Below are positions 1-64,000 of a DNA stretch of 64,000 nucleotides, one piece after another (position 1 is the stretch's first letter; every line of letters starts with the position of its first letter). A model generated the notes under the pieces. That model was not told the DNA's origin. It made no database searches and saw nothing but the letters and a program-made list of their open reading frames with translations. The stretch covers positions 1 to 64,000 of the forward strand of contig CALSSN010000005.1 in assembly GCA_943789025.1 (NCBI GenBank). Reading direction: 5' to 3'. Source of the stretch: an uncultured Verrucomicrobiales bacterium. Lineage in GTDB: Bacteria > Verrucomicrobiota > Verrucomicrobiia > Verrucomicrobiales > DEV007. The translations under genes were made by a program, and so were the position numbers.

Positions 1-2000
1 ACTTATCGCGCCCGCAGCGCCATGCGCGAGATGGGAAAAGTCCTCGACCTTCCTGCCGATGTTCTCGGGCGCTTTTCCGATTCTTTCGGTCGTGAGGGAT
101 TCGCGGAAGAGGAGAAACTCCGCGAGCGGCTCTGCCGATCCGGGCTCCCCCGTAAGCACCCCCGGACCGATCCTCTGGTGACCCTGCTCCATGCGGTGCG
201 CGGATTGCCCCGGCACCTCGGCCAGCATTCCGGCGGCATGATTATCAGCGACCGTGAGCTCGACCGTATTGTCCCGTTAGAGAATGCCTCGATGCCCGGG
301 CGCAGCATCGTGCAGTGGGACAAGGACGACTGCGAAGACCTCGGCATCATCAAAGTGGACCTTCTCGGGCTCGGGATGATGGCGGCGATTGAGGAAACAC
401 TTCAGATCTGTTCGGCGCGCGGGAGACCCGTCGATCTGGCGCAGATTCCTAAAGACGACGCCGCCACCTTCACCATGCTCCAGCGTGCCGATACCATCGG
501 CCTCTTCCAGGTGGAAAGTCGCGCTCAGCAGGCCTGCCTTCCCAGAATGCGGCCGGAAGTCTTCTACGATGTGGTCATCCAGACCGCGCTGATCCGTCCC
601 GGACCGATCGTGGGGAATCTCGTCCACCCATACCTCGACCGTCGCCGCGGGAAGCAACCGGTCACCTACCTCGACGAGCGCTTCGAGCCGATTCTCAAAC
701 GCACTCTCGGCATTCCACTTTTCCAGGAACAGGTGCTGCGTATGGCCATGGTGATTGCCGATTTCAGCGGGTCTGAAGCCGAGGAACTGCGCCGGGCTCT
801 CAGTTTTAAACGCAGCGAGGAGAAAATGGACAAGGTGCTGGAAAAGCTTTGCTCCGCCATGACACGGAAATGCGTCAGGAAGGAAAAACAGGAAAAGATC
901 ATCGCGTCGATCCGTGCCTTCGCTCTCTACGGTTTTTCCTGAGAGCCATGCCATCAGTTTTGCGCTGCTCGCCTACGCAAGCGCCTGGCTCAAAGTTCAC
1001 CGCACCACCGAGTTTTATGTCGGCCTGCTTAACAACCAGCCCATGGGTTTTTACTCTGCAGACACCTTGATCCGTGATGCCCGACGCTGGGGTGTCTGTG
1101 TCGCTCCGGTGTGTGCGGTGGCATCCGAAAGGCGCTGTGTCATCGAGTCTCCTTCCAGAATCCGGCTCGGTCTCAGGCAGGTCCGGCACGTTTCTGCCCG
1201 AGTCATTGACAGGCTTCTGGAGGAGCGGATGGCGCAGGCCTTCACCGACCTCGATGACCTCCTCCTTCGCGTTCCCATGTCTAGGAAAGAACGTCGGGTT
1301 CTCGCGAAATCCGGCGTTTTTTGCGGCCTTCAGTCAGCACCGGCGCGATGCCTTGTGGAAGGTGGAGGACGCTCCCGAGGAGGAAGACCTTTTCACCTGG
1401 TCACGGCAGCAGCAGCAGCAGCAGCGTGCGCCAAAAGTGTCTTCGCTTCCACCGCCAGCAGTGCCCGGCCAGTGCCCCCTTGTTTTTCAGCACGAAGCGC
1501 AGAGCGAGGTGGATCAGGAACGCCACCGCCATTGTTGCTCCCCCGCCACAGAGAAGCACCATCCTTCACCGCTTCAGGCGATGTCGAATCTCGAGCGGCT
1601 GGAGGCGGATTACGCAGGGCTTGGGGTGACCACAGGCCCGCACCCGATGGCGTATCTGCGCCCTGCGCTGGAGGGGCGAATCTGGGCGGCAGTTGACCTG
1701 GTACAGGCGCACGATGGCCAGCACCTTACGGTGGCAGGGGTGGTCATCTGTCGGCAGCGACCGAGCACTGCCAAGGGGCATCTTTTTCTGAGTCTGGAAG
1801 ACGAGACCGGTATTAGTAATATTTTCGTCCCAGCCAAAACCTTCGAACGCCATCGCCTCGTGATTACTCAGGAACCGGTTTTGAAAATTTACGGCAGACT
1901 CCAGCACCGAGAAGGGGTAGTGTCTGTTTTTCTTCTTCGTGTGGAACGTCTCTGTGCCGCTCAGAACAGCAAGGGTGAAAAAACCCCAGGTAATTGTTAG
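1..2000 (+). CDS. dnaE2: Error-prone DNA polymerase III alpha subunit, 3' part, two frameshifts
   Basis: This is the C-terminal half or more of DnaE2, the translesion polymerase of the ImuA-ImuB-DnaE2 mutagenesis system. The reading frame is open from base 1, so the gene begins upstream. Visible pieces in order are the GQHSGGMIIS segment, VDLLGLGMM, FQVESRAQQ, IRPGPIVG, the YGF-ESHAISFALLAY segment, a helix-hairpin-helix region and a C-terminal OB-fold part. Two +1 shifts are resolved. Removing one T from the run at 933-937 gives YGFPESHAISF. Removing one T from 1317-1322 gives SGVFAAFSQHRRD. A CAG run near 1405-1423 encodes six glutamines just before the OB region. Identity rests on established DnaE2 motifs. 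The frameshifts are more likely sequence errors than true decay, because the protein stays conserved after them. Confidence 0.88.
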
Positions 2001-3549: not shown

Positions 3550-4056
3550 GTGGTGTCAGGACTTGTCTGCGAGATCTGTGGAAATCCGATTCGCGCGGGA
3601 GTGGCGAGCTGTCGCTTCTGCGGGTCGCGGCAGGAGGATGGGGGAGTTTTCGAGCACTGGGAAGGGGATCGGGTGGCGGCGGGTGGTCGCGGTTCGCTCA
3701 GAGATGACGCATCCACGCGGTTTGCGACCTGCAATATCAAGGAGGGATTCCCCACCGTGGCCGAGGCGGAGCAAACTCTGCACCGCGGGTTTGATTGGGC
3801 ATTGGCTTCAGGAGCGAAAGTACTGACAGTGATCCACGGTTATGGCTCGAGTGGGCGTGGTGGCGCGATCCGCGACGCAGCAAGAGTGCTCGTGCGCGGT
3901 AAGGTTTTTTCCGGACAGGTTAGAGCCTCAGTGTCGGGTGAGGAGTTCTCTACGAATTGCGTGGAGACTGCGGCTCTTCTCCGCTCCTTGCCATGGCTGC
4001 GCGACCACCGGGACCTCGGTCGCGGAAATCGCGGAATCACCATTGTAGTGCTGTAA
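3550..4056 (+). CDS. Zinc-ribbon Smr-domain protein
   Basis: About 168 residues. The GTG codons at 3550 and 3553, just after the previous stop, are the likeliest starts; the frame also runs 5' into the neighbour. N-terminal CEICGNPI and CRFCGSRQ form a CxxC-CxxC zinc ribbon. The C-terminal half holds TVAEAEQTLHRGFDWAL and the Smr signature VIHGYGSSGRGGAIR, as in the C-terminal domain of MutS2 and in stand-alone Smr nucleases. Smr domains nick or bind branched DNA or stalled-translation mRNA; which applies here cannot be told. Spacing suggests co-transcription with the secreted protein upstream. Confidence 0.72.
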   Translation: MVSGLVCEICGNPIRAGVASCRFCGSRQEDGGVFEHWEGDRVAAGGRGSLRDDASTRFATCNIKEGFPTVAEAEQTLHRGFDWALASGAKVLTVIHGYGSSGRGGAIRDAARVLVRGKVFSGQVRASVSGEEFSTNCVETAALLRSLPWLRDHRDLGRGNRGITIVVL

Positions 4057-34354: not shown

Positions 34355-35616
34355 ATGAAAGAAAGTTTCAGAGGAAAAATCCGACCTGCCGCGGGTCGTG
34401 AGCCTGACTGGGACCTACCTGAAGCCGGAGATGCAGAGCATTTACCGGCAGTTGGCGAACCTCAAGCGCCACCAGACCACGGTGTTTGCCGAGAAGCTGG
34501 AAAAATGAGGAAGTGTTTCCGCTCGACCACGTCGCGCAGATGACGAAAATCCCCCCGCCCTCGGCCGCGGGGAAACTTATGTGCTGCGATTTTGGGTACA
34601 AGCACGTGGTCAAGCAATGGCCGCCACCGCGAAAAATTCACCACAGAACCAGAGGAATACTTCCCCTACGACCTGGTTGAAATTCTGAGGAGAGAAAATC
34701 CTGATCTCGTACACGTCTATTACGGACACAAGGCAGTCAAGTATCACGCAATGCTCACCGCCTGGGGTGGCCCGTGGATAGTGTCATTTCACGGAGTCGA
34801 TGTGGTGAAGTTTTTCGACAGGGAGGGATATCACGACCAGATGCGGAGGGTTTTCAGAGATGCACAACTCGTTCTTGGACGCAGTGAATCACTTCTGGAA
34901 AAGCTGGAGGATCTCGGCTGCCCGCGCGAAAAGCTGCGCCTGAATCGAACACCGATTCCAATGATGAGTGCACCGCAGCCTTTGCCTCGCACGCCTCCCG
35001 GAGAAGGCGATGGCCACTGGCGCCTGCTGCAGGCATGTCGGTTGGTGGAAAAGAAAGGAATTCTGACCACCTTGCGGGCGCTTTCTGAGGTGGTGAAAAC
35101 CATTCCGAATTTCCGTTATATTCTTTGCGGGAATGGACCATTTCGTGACATGATTGTGAGCGAGGTTGGGCGGCTCGGATTGGGAGACAATGTGCAGCTT
35201 CGCGGGTGGCTCAGTCAGGCAGCGCTCGCTGAGGAATTCGAGAAGGCCGCATATTTTTCTCCACCCGAGCGAACTGACCGGATCTTCCGACCAGGAGGGG
35301 GTTCCTAACAGCATGCTTGAGGCGATGTCTTATGGATTGCCGATCGTTGCCACCCGCCACGGTGGTATTCCAGAGGCAGTGAGAGATGGTGTGGATGGTA
35401 TCCTGGTTCCCGAAAAGAGCGTCGAGGATTTGCGCGACGCGTTGCTGCGTGTGATGAGCGACGCCCCATTGCTGGCCTCACTTTCAGAACAGGGCAGCAG
35501 CAGGTGTGCGTCAGCGTTTCGGCTTGGAGCAGAGTGTCGCTGCCTTGGAAGATTGCTACCACGAGGCGGTCAGCGCCTCTCGAGAAGCAGGGGAGGAAGA
35601 TGCCGAGATTGGATAG
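34355..35616 (+). CDS. Second glycosyltransferase family 4-like protein, frameshifted
   Basis: About 420 residues when repaired, starting at ATG 34355. It has VVSLTGTYLKPEMQSIYRQL, a long clean stretch from DLVHVYYGHKAVKYHAM through IVSFHGVDVVKFF, VLGRSESLLEKLEDLGCP, LRLNRTPIPM, LLQACRLVEKKGILTTLRAL and LGLGDNVQLRGWLS, then SDQEGVPNSMLEAMSYGLPI, RHGGIPEAVRDGVDGILVP, and a tail FGLEQSVAALEDCYHEAV ending at the TAG at 35614-35616. Shifts lie near 34400, 34500, 34600, 35270 and 35500. Clearly a paralogue of the preceding gene (shared KPEM, HG-V/M-D, NRT-IPM, EGVPNSMLE), so a tandem duplication acting in the same polysaccharide pathway is likely. Confidence 0.78.
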
Positions 35617-35732
35617 GTAAGACCGAGGTGGCTTTTGGAAATTCTTGCTGCAGATACCAGATCCTGCCGGGTGGTGAGGTCACGAGCCGAGGGGACCATG
35701 AACTGCCGGGTGCTCGAAATTCTCTGCCAGGC

Positions 35733-36225
35733 TCACACCGGCGAGGTGTCCTTCCAAGTGGGCCATGGGTGCACTGCGAGGTGATTGTTCAGGTAGCGGC
35801 GATCACTGGTGACCTGCTCTCCGAGCCATGTGGGTTTCTTGAAAGGGGTGTCCTCAGAGGGAAGTTCGATCTCTGCGACCACTAGACCTTCATTGCTGCC
35901 GTGGAAGACATCGATCTCCCACGTGAGACCATTGCCTGCAGGCACATGATGTCGCGTCTTTTCAATGACCCGACTTCCAGAGATCTCGCGGATCATTTGT
36001 TTCCCCTCGGCGACGGGAATACTGAATTCGAATTCCGCCCTCTCGGTATGAGAGAGCCAGCGCTTGATGCCCGATCAGAGCGTGTGCGTCATCGGTGATG
36101 CGGACTCGGACAGCCACGTCGTTTTCCCGGGCAAGGTAGCCTTGGATGAGGCGCATGCTTTTGGTAGCCTCCGGAAGCGGGTCGCCGACGGTAAGGAATT
36201 TTCTTTCGATTTCTCGTGCCATTGT
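35733..36225 (-). CDS. CYTH-domain (inorganic triphosphatase-like) protein, one frameshift
   Basis: About 163 residues. It begins MAREIERKFLTVGDPLPEAT, the ExExK motif that names the family, then LIQGYLARENDVAVRVRI. Removing one G near plus-strand 36075-36085 joins it to EFEFSIPVAEGKQMIREISG, VIEKTRHHVPAGNGLTWEID, VFHGSNEGLVVAEIELPSED and VTSDRRYLNNHLA. CYTH tunnels bind triphosphates with a metal; stand-alone bacterial members usually hydrolyse inorganic triphosphate. It opposes the glycosyltransferases and precedes the respiratory cluster on the other strand. Confidence 0.85.
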
Positions 36226-48454: not shown

Positions 48455-50384
48455 ATGGCAGAAGCAACCGCAGAAGCTCACGAACACGCGCATGACGATC
48501 ACGCGCATGACGATCACGCTCACGATGATCATCATGAACTCTCGTTCATCCAGAAATACGTTTTCTCCACGGATCACAAGGTCATTGGAATTCAATATGG
48601 AATCAGTGCCTTGGTCTTCCTTGCCATCGGTTTTTTCCTCATGCTTGCCATGCGCTGGAGCATTGCTTATCCCGGCGAACAGCTGCCATGGATTGCGCAG
48701 AAAATCATTGGTTTTGGCGGGCTCGGTGAGTTCCTGGAAAGATCTCAGGGCACCATGGACGGGACGCTCTATAACATGTTCGGTGCCATGCACGGGACGA
48801 TCATGGTCTTCCTCGGAGTGGTTCCCCTCGGCTTCGCCGCTTTTGGGAACTATGTGACACCTCTGCAGATCGGAGCGCCCGATATGGCCTTTCCGCGACT
48901 GAATATGTGGAGCTTCTGGGCATTCGCGATTGGAGGAACCCTGATGCTGGCCTCCTTTTTTCTCCCTACGGGAGCGGCTCAGGTCGGTTGGACCAACTAT
49001 TCACCCCTCGCCACTACGGCGCAGATTGAGTCCGGTACGTTCTGGGGGATTTTCTGGACCGGCCAGACCCAATGGCTGGTTGCCATGGTTTTTGTGATCT
49101 CTTCATCGCTTCTAGGGTCCGTCAATTTCATCACCACCATCATCAACCTTCGAGCCCCAGGGCTCACCTGGATGCGCCTGCCTTTTTTCGTCTGGGCCAT
49201 GCTGGTAGTTGGTTTCCTTCTCCTCCTTCGCTTTCCCCGCCGCTGGAAGTGGCAGCGATCATGCAGTTGATGGACCGTCTCGCAGGATCCTCCTCCTTCT
49301 TCTCCCGACCGGTTTGGCGACTGACGGCGGTCAGATTCTTGATATTTCTGGTGGGGGATCGCCTCTGCTTTACCAGCACCTGTTCTGGTTCCTGGGGCAT
49401 CCAGAGGTCTACGTCCTCCTTCTTCCAGCTATCGCTATCGTTGCAGAAATTATCCCGAATAACACCAGGAAGCCACTCTGGGGTTACAAGTCGATGGTCT
49501 ACGCTGTGCTCGTCCTCGGGTTCCTTTCATTCATCGTCTGGGCCCACCACATGTATCTCACCGGGATGGGGAATGCGGTTTCCACCTTCTTCCAGACCAC
49601 GACAGTCCTCATTTCGATTCCTTCAGTCATTCTTCTGACCTGCCTGATGATTTCTCTCTGGGGGGGGTCGATCCGCTTTACCGTTCCGATGCTGTTTGCT
49701 TCAGCGTTTCTCCCGATGTTCGGCTTTGGAGGGCTGACAGGATTGCCCCTTGCCTTCAACCTGACCGACCTCCACCTGCATGATACCTACTACGTGATCG
49801 GGCACTTCCATTACGTAGTCGCTCCCGGCACGCTTTTTGGTCTTTTTGCCGGAATCTATTACTGGTATCCCAAAGCCACCGGTCGGCATATGAGCACCTT
49901 TCTCGGGCACTTGCATTTCTGGCCGACTCTGATCTGCATGAATGGCATCTTTTTGCCCATGTTTATCCAAGGAATGGCAGGATTTCACCGTCGTTGGTGG
50001 GATGGAGGTCTCGCCTTTGAGAGCACCACCGCCAAATGGATTCATCTCAATGAAGTGATGTCGTTTTTTGCCTTCACGATGGCCTTGGCACAGATTCCTT
50101 TTATTATCAATTTCTTCTGGAGCATCAAACGTGGCAAAAAGGCCGAAGGTGATAACCCCTGGGGTGCGACGACTCTGGAGTGGGCGACTCCCACCCCTCC
50201 GCCACACGGCAACTTCGTGGTCGACCCGGTTGTGTATCGCGGTCCTTACGAGTACAGCGTTCCTGGAATGGAGCAGGATTTCCTTCCGCAGACCACAGCT
50301 CCGGAAGATGTGCAGACTGCCGGTAAGGCTAATGCCGATGCTGACTCTGCTTCTGCTGAGGATGTTGCCACTGCCAAGGCATAG
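48455..50384 (+). CDS. coxA: Cytochrome c oxidase (aa3/caa3 type) subunit I, frameshifted
   Basis: About 640 residues when repaired. The N terminus carries a His/Asp-rich repeat (three HDDHAHDD-type units) before FSTDHKVIGIQYGI. Then come MFGAMHGTIMVFLG (low-spin heme a His), GHPEVYVLLLPAI (CuB His, proton-channel Glu and Tyr), VWAHHMYLTGM (CuB His pair) and LHDTYYVIGHFHYVV (heme a3 and heme a His). All catalytic ligands are present. Frames change near 49230 and 49300; repaired, the region reads FPALEVAAIMQLMDR then LPTGLATDGGQILD. It reduces oxygen to water and pumps protons. Confidence 0.93.
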
Positions 50385-52762: not shown

Positions 52763-53548
52763 ATGATACCTACTCTCGCCCTAATCAACGAAATGTTTGG
52801 TCTTCCAGAGCGTGCTTCTGAGCATGCCGAGATGGTGGATCACATGCTCGAATTCGTTCACTGGTTTATGGCCATTCTGTTTATCGGCTGGTCGGCATTT
52901 CTCTGCCTTGTCTTCTGGAAGTTTCGTCGGAAAAATAACCCGAAGGCCGACTATACGGGAGTGCAGGGAAATGCTTCAAGCCACATAGAGATTGGCGTGA
53001 TCATCGTCGAAGCGATTCTCCTCCTCGGCTTCGCGCTGCCGTTATGGAATCAGAGAGTAGAAAAGTATCCCGCCGAGGCCGATGTGCTGAAGGTCCGTGC
53101 TGTCGGGCAGAAGTTTGCCTGGACTTTCGTCTACCCTGGGAAGGACGGAGTGCTCGGCCGGGTTGATCCTCATCTGGTAACTTTTGAGAATCCTTTAGGA
53201 CAAGACTTTGCAGATCCGCACACGGCCGATGATTTTCAGGTCGTGGGAGAACTGAGAATTCCTGTCGACCGGCATGTCATTATCGACGTAGCCAGCAAGG
53301 ACGTGATCCATAATCTGGCACTGACACCTATGCGAATCGCTCAGGACGCCATTCCTGGAGTCGGCGCGCAGATGTGGTTCAAGCCAGTGAAGACGGGTGA
53401 GTGGGAGATTATCTGCGGCCAACTTTGTGGATCTGGTCACGCAAACATGATCGCGTATCTTTACGTCGATGGTGAAAGCGACTTCGAAGCTTTCTGCGAG
53501 GAAAACGCTCCGCCGACCAAGGTGGCGCTCGCTTCCGCGGCTCAGTAG
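52763..53548 (+). CDS. coxB: Cytochrome c oxidase subunit II
   Basis: 261 residues. Two N-terminal helices (WFMAILFIGWSAFLCLVFW; IEIGVIIVEAILLLGFALPL) are followed by the cupredoxin domain. CuA ligands are visible: His in SKDVIHNLALTPMRI, and CGQLCGSGHANM with both Cys, the His and the Met; the usual Glu between the cysteines is Gln here. VGQKFAWTFVYPG is the Trp region for cytochrome c entry. There is no fused cytochrome c domain, so the enzyme is not a true caa3 by this subunit. Placing subunit II last in the operon is unusual. Confidence 0.93.
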   Translation: MIPTLALINEMFGLPERASEHAEMVDHMLEFVHWFMAILFIGWSAFLCLVFWKFRRKNNPKADYTGVQGNASSHIEIGVIIVEAILLLGFALPLWNQRVEKYPAEADVLKVRAVGQKFAWTFVYPGKDGVLGRVDPHLVTFENPLGQDFADPHTADDFQVVGELRIPVDRHVIIDVASKDVIHNLALTPMRIAQDAIPGVGAQMWFKPVKTGEWEIICGQLCGSGHANMIAYLYVDGESDFEAFCEENAPPTKVALASAAQ

Positions 53549-53662: not shown

Positions 53663-54403
53663 TCAGCCCCCAAGCGCTGCCTTGATTCTAGAAATTTCTT
53701 GGTCCGCTGTGACGGAAACGCCGACGAGTTGTCGCAGGCTTTCACCTTCGCTGTTTAAGAGCTGAATGGTCGGAAACGCTGAGACCTGGTATTTTTTTAG
53801 GAGCTCTTCGTGACCGGAGTTGGTAGGACCGCTTCGGGCAACATCAACTTCTAGAAGAACCAGACTCTGGTTGGAGAACTTTTTGAAAGTATGGGAAGAA
53901 AAGACCTCTTCTTCAGCTACACGGCATGCCCGTCACCAGTCAGTTCCTGTGAAGAGTAAATAAATGGGTAGTCCTGAATTCTGCGCTTCTTTCAGAGCTG
54001 TATCCATGGAGTTGTGCCAGCGTGCCTGTCGGTTTGACGGGGCTTTAGCGGGGCCTCGTGAGAGCAATTGGGCCTTGTAATCTGCGACCTCTGAAAACCT
54101 GCCCTGGTCCTCGGCGGAAAGGTTTTGAAGGGAAATGAGAAACTCCATTGCGTCGGTTTGACGGCGGACAAGAATCTGGCCACCTCGCTTCGCTAGAATC
54201 AGGCATTCAAGTGCTCTCCCCTTGGTATCGGTGAGAGTCACACTGCTGTCGAAGATCGGATCATGAGGCAATTGATCACTCATCCAGGATTTTGCTTTTT
54301 CAGCGTTTTGGATGATTTCCGGAAGACGTTCGAATATTTTGTAATGGTAGCATAGGGCGGCGCTTCCGATCAGCATGAAGAGAGATAGCTTTCCAATCTG
54401 CAT
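53663..54403 (-). CDS. SHD1-like plus thioredoxin-like protein with in-frame UGA (second candidate selenoprotein)
   Basis: Reading through the UGA at 53935-53933 gives 246 residues in one frame. An N-terminal helix (LSLFMLIGSAALCYHYKIF) leads into an SHD1-like domain (SSVTLTDTKGRALECLILAK to LQNLSAEDQGRFSEV). The thioredoxin-like domain then follows: LPIYLLFTGTDW-U-RAC-RVAEEEVFSSHTF, LVLLEVDVARSG, KKYQVSAFPTIQLL with its cis-Pro, and GVSVTADQEISRIKAALGG before the true stop. The usual box is GTDWCxxC; the UGA sits at the first Cys (codon 157). Sequence after the UGA is fully thioredoxin-like. A hairpin with loop AGGUCU follows. Likely membrane-tethered and periplasmic. It lies tail-to-tail with coxB. 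Confidence 0.82.
53895..53914 (-). promoter_or_regulatory. Candidate bacterial SECIS stem-loop
   Basis: In the transcript, arms GAAGAAGA and UUUUCUUC pair over eight positions (one G-U) around GGUC; the open form of the loop is AGGUCU, the same hexamer as in the E. coli fdhF SECIS apical loop. The GG lies at +27/+28 after the UGA, exactly as in the paralogue at 17343-17359. Confidence 0.68.
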
Positions 54404-61863: not shown

Positions 61864-61995
61864 GGAGTAGTCATGGAGTTCCAAGTGACCGAGGTCAAGC
61901 AGCACCCGGTGGCCGGGTTTCCAGAGAATCTGCCGCGCCTCCCCGGTTTCTTGCAGATTGACGGATAACCGGCAGCCTCCTAGTATCCCATGATT
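61864..61995. promoter_or_regulatory. Divergent intergenic region between sigma-like and kinase genes
   Basis: About 130 bases separate the two divergent starts and must hold both promoters. I see no unambiguous -35/-10 pair or palindromic operator. Confidence 0.35.
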
Positions 61996-64000
61996 ATGGC
62001 GGAGTTCGAGGAAAACCAGACCCTGCCCGACGACGGGGAACCTGCCCGGGATGCTGGCGACTACGCCGGGGAGTGGCCCCCCGGGCAGCTCGGGCCATGG
62101 ATTCTCGAGGAAGAGATCGGGGCCGGTGGCTGGGGCGTCGTCTTCCGTGGCAGGCACGAACACCTCGGGGGAGAGATCGCCGTAAAGATCCTGCGCCCGG
62201 ACCTGGCTGCGGTCGCCGCGAACGTCACCGCCTTCGTGGATGAGGCGCGGCGGATGTTCACGCTCAGAGAGTGCGGGCAGGTTATTCAGGTGCGTGATGT
62301 GCAGGTCTCCGGGGAGGGGCTGCCCTTCCTCGTCATGGACCTGGCGAAGGGCCTCCAGATCGGGGGAAAGAAGCTGCGTTCCGTGGCCCATCTCATGGCC
62401 GACCGGGAGCAGCAGAGCGGCTCGGTGCGCCTGGAGGAGGCCGCCGTCATCGGCATGGCCCGGGACGTGCTGCTGGCGCTGCAGGCGGCGCACGCGGCGG
62501 GCCTCGTTCACCGCGATATCAAGCCCGGCAACATGCTGCTGGATGGCTCCGGCCGGGTGCGCCTGTCCGATTTCGGGCTCGCCAAGCTCGTCGCCTCCGA
62601 ACTCAGCGGCGCCCTTGAAGGCAGTTCCAGCGGGCAGGCCAGGAGCACCGTGGTGAAGGGCAGCCTCCACTACCTGAGCCCGGAGCAGCAGCAACTCAAA
62701 GACCTCGACGGACGCAGCGACCTCTACTCACTGGGCGTCTGCCTTTACCAGATGCTGACCGGCGAGTTACCTCTTGGGCTCTTCGAGCTGCCGGGGGAAC
62801 TCGGGCTGGGTCTGGCGGAAGGGTGGGACGATTTCTTCCGGCGCACGCTCAAGCGACGACCGGAGGACCGGTGGAAGGATGCGACAGAGATGCTGGAAGC
62901 ACTCGGGGCGCTGGAGAAGGCAGGTGAGCAGCCTGAGCCTCTACCGCAGCCTGAGCCCCACAAACAACCTGAGCCTGAGCTGCAGACCAAGCCAGAGCCG
63001 GCTTCGGTGCCGGATTCGCGCCCGGCAGTGCCCGCGCAGGCTCAGACGAAAACGCAATCGAAACCGAAGACCACAAGCGCAGCCACGCGACCATCTGCGG
63101 GGGGGCAGTCGCAACGCCAGGGGTCGCTGAAAGCCGTACGGCAAAGAGGTCGGGTGGCCCTGTATCCAAGCCATTTTCATTTGGACACTTCCTTGGTTGC
63201 TATTACGCTAGATTACCGTGGTGGTTCAAACTTGGGTTCGCGGCGCTGGTGATCGGTCTTGGTCTGTGGGTGGTCCGTAACGCAGTTGAGCCGACCGTCG
63301 GGTAGAACCACGGGACCCGGCAGGCCCCTCAGCGGTCACCTGGGAGGCAGAGCCCTTTGCCGCGGAGGCCACCTTCACCAACGGGATCGGCCAGCAGATG
63401 ATCTGGGTGCCTGCGGGGAGTTTCCGGATGGGGGATCTGACGGGGAAGGGATATGATGACGAGAAGCCGGTGCGGACGGTGGAGCTGTCGGGTTATCACC
63501 TTGGGTCGACGGAGGTGACGCAGGGTCAGTGGCAGGCGGTGATGGGGAGTAACCCGAGTTATTTCAAAGGCGACAGCCTACCTGTAGAAGAAGTCTGATG
63601 GGAAGACGCGATGGAGTTCTGCCGGAAGCTGACGGAGAGGGAGCGTCGGCTGGGCGTCTGCCTTCTGGATATGCGTATGTGTTGCCGACGGAGGCGGAGT
63701 GGGAGAATGCGTGCCGTGCGGGGACGACGGGGGACTATGCCGGGGATCTGGATGCGATGGGGTGGTATGATGAGAACTCGGGGAGCAAGACGCACCCGGT
63801 TGGCGGGAAGAGGGCGAACGCGTGGGGCTTTTACGACATGCACGGCAACGTGTGGGAGTGGTGCTGGACTGGTATGGCAGCTATGAGGGCCTTGGGACTC
63901 GACGATCCTGACAGGTACCGCGACACGGCTCCTACCGCGTGCTCCGGGGCGGCAGCTGGCTCACACGCGTCCAGCTGTCGCTCGGCCCGCCGCCACGGGG
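61996..64000 (+). CDS. Ser/Thr protein kinase fused to an FGE-sulfatase (SUMF1-type) domain, frameshifted and cut by the window end
   Basis: The kinase domain occupies the first ~300 residues: [14 protein letters not shown] (P-loop), IAVKILR (Lys), [14 protein letters not shown] (catalytic loop), LSDFGLAKL (DFG), HYLSPEQQ and [16 protein letters not shown] Pro/Glu linker (QPEP repeats) follows. After a shift near 63130 a membrane-like segment and then the FGE-sulfatase domain appear: [73 protein letters not shown] and YRVLRGGSW near the end. A TGA at 63596-63598 replaces the Ser of PVEEVSWEDA. Pkn1-type kinase-FGE fusions are known in this phylum. ATG 61990 is an alternative start. Confidence 0.82.

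Follow-up and report, generated by a model that had tools for sequence, protein, structure and literature searches.

The question raised by this locus is whether a UGA codon in the middle of a thioredoxin-like gene, at the first cysteine position of the expected redox motif, ends translation or is read as selenocysteine. The window, which is the whole stretch of 64,000 nucleotides that was analyzed, carries this gene on the minus strand. Its reading frame starts with an ATG at 54403, and the TGA at codon 157 is the sole internal stop, in the context G153-T-D-W-U157-R-A-C160. An open reading frame list ending at this codon gives a protein of 156 residues. It is very probable that the gene encodes a selenoprotein in which UGA 157 is decoded as selenocysteine. 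The coordinates and the frame, which had been proposed in a sequence-only reading of the same DNA, were confirmed. The gene and its parts are as follows:

53663 to 54403, minus strand: whole gene, 246 residues plus stop, candidate selenoprotein with a membrane anchor, an SHD1-like and a thioredoxin-like part (from the reading frame and homologues)
54338 to 54391, minus strand: N-terminal hydrophobic stretch, probable membrane anchor (sequence read by eye)
54086 to 54250, minus strand: SHD1-like region, residues about 52 to 106 (from the SHD1 matches of relatives)
53717 to 54022, minus strand: thioredoxin-like domain, Thioredoxin_7 at residues 128 to 216 and Thioredoxin_2 at residues 141 to 229 (also from pLDDT and the DsbH match)
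53933 to 53935, minus strand: UGA codon 157, for which selenocysteine is proposed as the first residue of U-R-A-C
53924 to 53926, minus strand: TGC codon 160, proposed resolving cysteine of UxxC (from the reading frame and the alignment)
53771 to 53773, minus strand: codon of Pro211, the expected cis-proline (invariant column in the alignments of 8 and of 16 sequences)
53663 to 53665, minus strand: second in-frame UGA, the natural stop, without a qualifying hairpin 3′ of the codon, which is consistent with its role as a stop

The part of the protein encoded 3′ of the UGA is matched by the Pfam family Thioredoxin_7 (PF13899) with 38 bits at a cut-off of 27. Furthermore, Thioredoxin_2 (PF13098) and Thioredox_DsbH were found with 34.8 and 28.3 bits, each also at a cut-off of 27. 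Pro211 belongs to an F-P-T motif at the place expected for the cis-Pro loop, in agreement with the earlier claim of a full thioredoxin sequence behind the UGA, including a cis-proline. For the SHD1-like region, the window gene gives no match to Pfam SHD1 (PF03983) at E ≤ 1; three of the eight sequences in the alignment match this family with E-values of 0.1 or lower, the best being 7.4e-6.

Homologues were searched in 386 genomes of the order to which the window belongs, and matches were listed down to about 1e-14. The best match among those listed shows 45% identity across residues 40-233, with the sequence F-T-G-T-S-W-C-P-P-C. At the site of codon 157, a CxxC is present in 28 of the 29 fetched homologue loci, which places the UGA at this site beyond chance. 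Locus L049 has an asparagine at the first cysteine position, and a serine is found there in a second, neighbouring copy at locus L045. None of the 29 loci has a stop inside the matched part. An alignment of eight sequences was built from the window protein, with the UGA entered as cysteine, and seven relatives; its invariant columns are Trp156, residue 157, Cys160 and Pro211. The sequence-only reading had placed the UGA at the first cysteine of GTDWCxxC, which agrees with the cysteine of the homologues. These continue past the site and do not end there naturally.

A search of 74 genomes from the same family listed 14 matches at 1e-15 or better, and the only internal stop among them, a TGA, is that of the window copy. 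Among the matches listed for the order sample, a TGA was likewise seen only in the window copy, and a TAG was seen in G319. The family and order matches listed contain no second SHD1-type copy with a UGA. To read this as the absence of any other UGA form from the order would be wrong, because the genomes G009, G039 and G132 share their selA coordinates with the genomes of L100, L080 and L104, which carry UGA forms. Within the window, the thioredoxin profile matched only the present gene, and a second UGA thioredoxin gene was not found by this profile or by motif scans judged by eye. The assembly contains four Thioredoxin_7 matches, with a UGA in the window gene only. The gene had been introduced as the second of two candidates, next to another paralogous UGA gene, and this part of the earlier description was not upheld.

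The search for the selenocysteine machinery in the same genome, which the sequence-only reading had suggested as a check, was successful for selA, selD and tRNA-Sec and failed for SelB. The assembly (G000) comprises 2.57 Mb in 31 contigs and is 81% complete. It encodes a SelA with 492.6 bits (cut-off 267.9) and a SelD with 257.3 bits (cut-off 125). The tRNA-Sec was found with 60.3 bits (gathering score 47) and was identified by ARAGORN as tRNA-SeC with the anticodon tca. The selD sequence forms the second half of a 759-residue open reading frame (L017:295-2574, plus strand), the first half of which appears NAD(P)H/FAD oxidoreductase-like by eye; the active site of this SelD has a cysteine, not a selenocysteine, as judged by eye.

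The assembly matches to the SelB profile TIGR00475 were read as EF-Tu, IF-2, TypA, CysN, EF-G and a LepA-like fragment only, SelB-wing_3 gave no match in the assembly, and no SelB was recognized by eye among the open reading frames in the 16 kb around selA. SelB exceeds the cut-off in seven of the eight selA-bearing relatives that were tested, and with an assembly completeness of 81% it is therefore expected and may sit in the missing fifth. It can also be absent from a good assembly, as in the eighth relative, G135, which is 95% complete, carries the nearest homologue and shows no SelB at 1e-60. Across the order, selA was found in 117 of the 386 genomes at 1e-60, and 115 of these matches exceed the cut-off. 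In the family it is present in 48 of 74 members, including G135 and G158, the homologues of which have a cysteine.

In addition, a species-genome collection was scanned for the DNA pattern of F-T-G-x-x-W-UGA-x-x-C. The scan demanded Phe-Thr-Gly and Trp exactly, covers that motif only and was run with the genome of the window and near ones left out. It returned 52 stretches, of which 17 were judged to be DsbH-like thioredoxin genes with a UGA at the homologous codon (L064, L070, L072, L074, L079-L081, L083-L085, L094, L097, L100, L104-L107). Nine of them belong to Verrucomicrobiota and eight to Planctomycetota. They encode an N-terminal signal-like segment, and several have a further C-terminal part. 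In all six of the 17 that were scanned against NCBIfam, the best match was DsbH, below its cut-off. The other 35 stretches were rejected as chance occurrences by reading of their frames, which are short open stretches with no thioredoxin-like sequence; this is a judgement and not a score.

The genomes with these UGA forms carry selA over the cut-off in 15 of 17 cases, compared with 117 of 386 in the order (Fisher p 2e-6), and in eight of nine for Verrucomicrobiota alone (p 6e-4); the comparison is indicative, as the reference set is a single order, several of the Planctomycetota loci are near-copies and three genomes occur in both sets. These three are one Persicirhabdus sediminis (L104) and two named Verrucomicrobiales; on their basis, the bacterium that carries the window very probably belongs to the order Verrucomicrobiales.

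A stem-loop was found 3′ of the UGA codon in two extents:

53895 to 53914, minus strand: 8-bp hairpin GAAGAAGA-GGUC-UUUUCUUC, proposed bSECIS core, with the GGUC loop at 53903-53906
53889 to 53920, minus strand: extended stem-loop with an additional three base pairs beneath a 3x3 internal loop, -7.3 kcal/mol

The core hairpin covers nucleotides 19 to 38 past the UGA, and the GGUC is closed by the 8-bp stem, with an A-U pair giving A-GGUC-U. This AGGUCU loop, described before from the sequence, is indeed present, and is identical to what we take to be the SECIS loop of E. coli fdhF. The weight that had been placed on it as evidence was too high, since the hairpin is ordinary by energy. Limits for bSECIS elements, as far as given in the accessible part of the source, are a loop of 3-9 nt, a stem of 4-16 bp, a G in the first two loop positions, a spacing of 16-37 nt and an energy of at most -7.5 kcal/mol (PMC13188914). 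The GGUC loop, the 8-bp stem and the spacing of 26 nt between UGA and loop lie within the limits for loop and stem, G position and spacing. The core folds with -5.5 kcal/mol, and the extended form, with the energy given above, falls narrowly short of the energy limit, for which that part of the source does not specify the stretch to be folded.

As proof on its own the hairpin was rejected, because the energy and recoding controls show it to be ordinary. The core energy is equalled or bettered after 65 of 412 cysteine codons in window open reading frames of at least 200 codons and at 1005 of 6000 random positions. Among sets of 200 dinucleotide shuffles, the number of sequences that folded no worse than the original was 97 for a 66-nt stretch, 49 for the core and 22 for the extended form. 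A stem of at least 8 bp with the right loop and spacing occurs after 17 of the 412 cysteine codons and at 3843 of 127,840 window positions. When the same peptide was recoded synonymously at random, 4314 of 20000 sequences contained such a stem, with GGUC as the loop of a stem of 5 bp or more in 2909. The combination of GGUC with at least 8 bp is rare, at 201 of the 127,840 window positions, a figure for a loop that was picked after being seen.

The hairpin carries weight only in comparison with cysteine relatives. These were collected with a regular expression, which found 18 places in the 29 homologue loci and left 12 loci unreached; one place (L053_1963) was out of frame and was dropped. A stem of at least 6 bp is present in 11 of 17 UGA relatives and in 3 of 17 cysteine relatives (p 0.013; 12 of 18 and p 0.006 when the window copy is added), and a stem of at least 8 bp in six and none of 17, respectively (p 0.018), in sets that are small and partly related. 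In L080, L100 and L104 the distance between the UGA and the start of the stem equals that in the window gene, and the loop is CGUGU; L081 has the loop GGUC. Five of the 17 UGA relatives (L064, L070, L079, L083 and L094) have a poor hairpin or none, which counts against a simple rule. No Rfam family reached its gathering score in the window, and no tRNA was found in it.

The strongest rival explanation is a base error or a strain-level nonsense change, with TGC or TGT as the true cysteine codon and the UGA as a mistake of sequencing or assembly. We regard this as improbable. The window does contain split genes (coxA, a glycosyltransferase gene and dnaE) and a kinase/SUMF1 copy with an in-frame TGA in place of a Ser/Thr codon, but three of these four defects resemble indels and not substitutions. 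The present gene has no frameshift, and its single internal stop falls on the one codon of 246 where a selenocysteine would be useful. That the nearest homologue among the matches listed has a cysteine, and that no close relative with the same UGA is among these matches, fits an error as well; the presence of selA, selD and tRNA-Sec in the assembly and the UGA at the homologous codon in 17 other contigs do not. Slightly less probable still is a pseudogene or truncated product, in which the UGA ends translation and leaves a 156-residue SHD1-like membrane protein without redox domain: the missing SelB and a hairpin no stronger than chance by energy would suit it, but the 89 codons past the UGA stay in frame, retain Cys160 and Pro211, match Thioredoxin_7 above its cut-off and have a third-position GC of 0.49, similar to the 0.53 of the first part, and the homologues run on past this site. 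The interpretation of the gene as a selenoprotein, as first put forward from the sequence, is supported.

A tree of 46 thioredoxin domains was calculated; L049 was left out, as it has no CxxC, the motif used to cut the domains. The window copy groups with four SHD1-type cysteine proteins of its family (support 97/87), and the 17 other UGA forms lie on the opposite side of a branch with a support of 100/97. The tree requires four state changes, and the grouping of all UGA forms into a single clade is rejected (p-AU 0.00013). The branch of the window copy is long (1.18), and its exact placement is therefore unsure. A separate change from cysteine to selenocysteine in its own lineage is the simplest reading, and repeated loss is possible. 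According to the available parts of the sources, conversion between the two residues in this direction is well documented for many thiol oxidoreductases (PMC1794560, PMC13188914).

Regarding the structure, the nearest solved one is that of DsbH (2ju5), both by sequence (1.6e-12) and by fold in Foldseek (5.1e-10), with DsbD gamma domains among the matches that follow. The structure model has a mean pLDDT of 73.5 and can be relied on in the thioredoxin half only, where the blocks of ten residues from residue 131 onwards have means of 79-97. The alignment used for the model has 16 rows, the window protein and 15 of the 17 UGA relatives without the near-copies L085 and L105; it does not contain the SHD1-like region, so that this half is not reliably modelled.

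Chlamydial DsbH is described, in the part of the source at hand, as a reducing dithiol oxidoreductase which structurally resembles thioredoxin and DsbD gamma and was suggested to help to keep the periplasm reducing; the same paper of 2016 states that DsbH was unreported outside chlamydial species (PMC5193440). The window protein resembles DsbH of Chlamydia pneumoniae (2ju5, NF043050) in sequence and in the thioredoxin fold. However, it reaches 67.8 bits at an NCBIfam cut-off of 190, and is therefore called DsbH-like and not DsbH; it also differs by the added SHD1-like region and by its U-R-A-C. The 17 DsbH-like UGA genes, with FTGSDW-U-xx-C, have the UGA at the homologous codon, an N-terminal signal-like segment and the thioredoxin domain in common with the window gene, but no SHD1-like region was seen in them and they belong to a separate part of the tree.

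Three kinds of known selenoproteins are comparable as well. The thiol:disulfide interchange selenoprotein of PF13098 with UxxC (PMC13188914, PMC9312934) also combines Thioredoxin_2 with UxxC; it was compared by its table row and not by a reference sequence, and its description, in the accessible parts of these sources, does not contain an SHD1-like fusion. The Trx7/PDZ (seleno)protein NF041199 is likewise a Thioredoxin_7-type selenoprotein, as far as its accessible description goes, but it has the motif CxxU and a PDZ domain, and the window protein gives 15.7 bits at a cut-off of 300. Finally, TsoB (NF045694) is a selenoprotein with a DsbD-like thioredoxin domain; according to its partial description it is a rhodanese fusion with UxxxxU and two selenocysteines, and the window protein gives 56.2 bits at a cut-off of 805. 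Neither an SHD1-linked thioredoxin selenoprotein nor a DsbH-like selenoprotein of Verrucomicrobiota or Planctomycetota is named in the titles and abstract openings among the literature matches listed, from a search with little coverage of subscription journals. The terms DsbH, SHD1, PF13899, Planctomycet and Verrucomicrob are absent from the main text of PMC13188914, the PF13098 UxxC row of which may include relatives.

If UGA 157 is decoded as selenocysteine, the product would carry a U-R-A-C redox site behind the SHD1-like region. SelB would bind the stem-loop 26 nt past the UGA and deliver the Sec-tRNA. The protein is probably a membrane-anchored thiol-disulfide oxidoreductase with a DsbH-like thioredoxin fold, and would face outward. 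Sec157 would attack disulfides and Cys160 would resolve them, and in this way a target in the envelope may be kept reduced, as proposed for chlamydial DsbH.

The gene lies next to oxidase genes, as noted before, and converges on the following one:

52763 to 53548, plus strand: coxB, cytochrome c oxidase subunit II, convergent neighbour (COX2 by Pfam)

No oxidase gene was recognized by eye in the 8-18 kb around each of four homologues (G135, G158, G092 and G031; for G092 the surroundings cover one side, and for G031 little more than one). Thus, the adjacency to coxB was not used as functional evidence, and a functional tie to the neighbouring oxidase is a guess.

The coxA gene (48455-50384, plus strand) is split into two overlapping open reading frames matching positions 2-175 and 178-435 of the COX1 profile, with a frameshift near 49.21-49.27 kb. 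The genes for a glycosyltransferase (34592-35885, plus strand) and dnaE (22-1696, plus strand) are also split into overlapping open reading frames, which suggests assembly indel errors. Furthermore, the frame of a Ser/Thr kinase and SUMF1-like copy (61990-64000, plus strand) is interrupted by breaks and by a TGA at 63596, a site at which Ser or Thr is encoded in the tandem copies farther down the contig; the copy is either decayed or the result of an error.

Decoding of UGA as selenocysteine is a known mechanism and not new biology, and the gene adds a good example to a kind of protein that is already known. If true, the selenoproteins known so far would gain an SHD1-linked, membrane-anchored disulfide oxidoreductase from an organism that has cytochrome c oxidase genes, and gene prediction which halts at the UGA would report a protein of 156 residues instead. 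We tentatively suggest, as a possibility somewhat short of even, that the DsbH-type envelope thioredoxins of Verrucomicrobiota and Planctomycetota form a selenoprotein group not described so far, in which cysteine and selenocysteine were exchanged more than once and the SHD1-linked copy arose by a separate conversion. The family is perhaps pre-adapted by hairpin-prone mRNA: the peptide E-E-E-V-F-S past the active site makes the mRNA prone to a SECIS-like hairpin, so that the family may gain selenocysteine by one base change. Together with its 17 relatives, the gene, if it does encode a selenoprotein, would offer a compact system for studying the change from cysteine to selenocysteine: the protein is short, its own peptide favours the hairpin, and cysteine relatives occur in genomes with selA.
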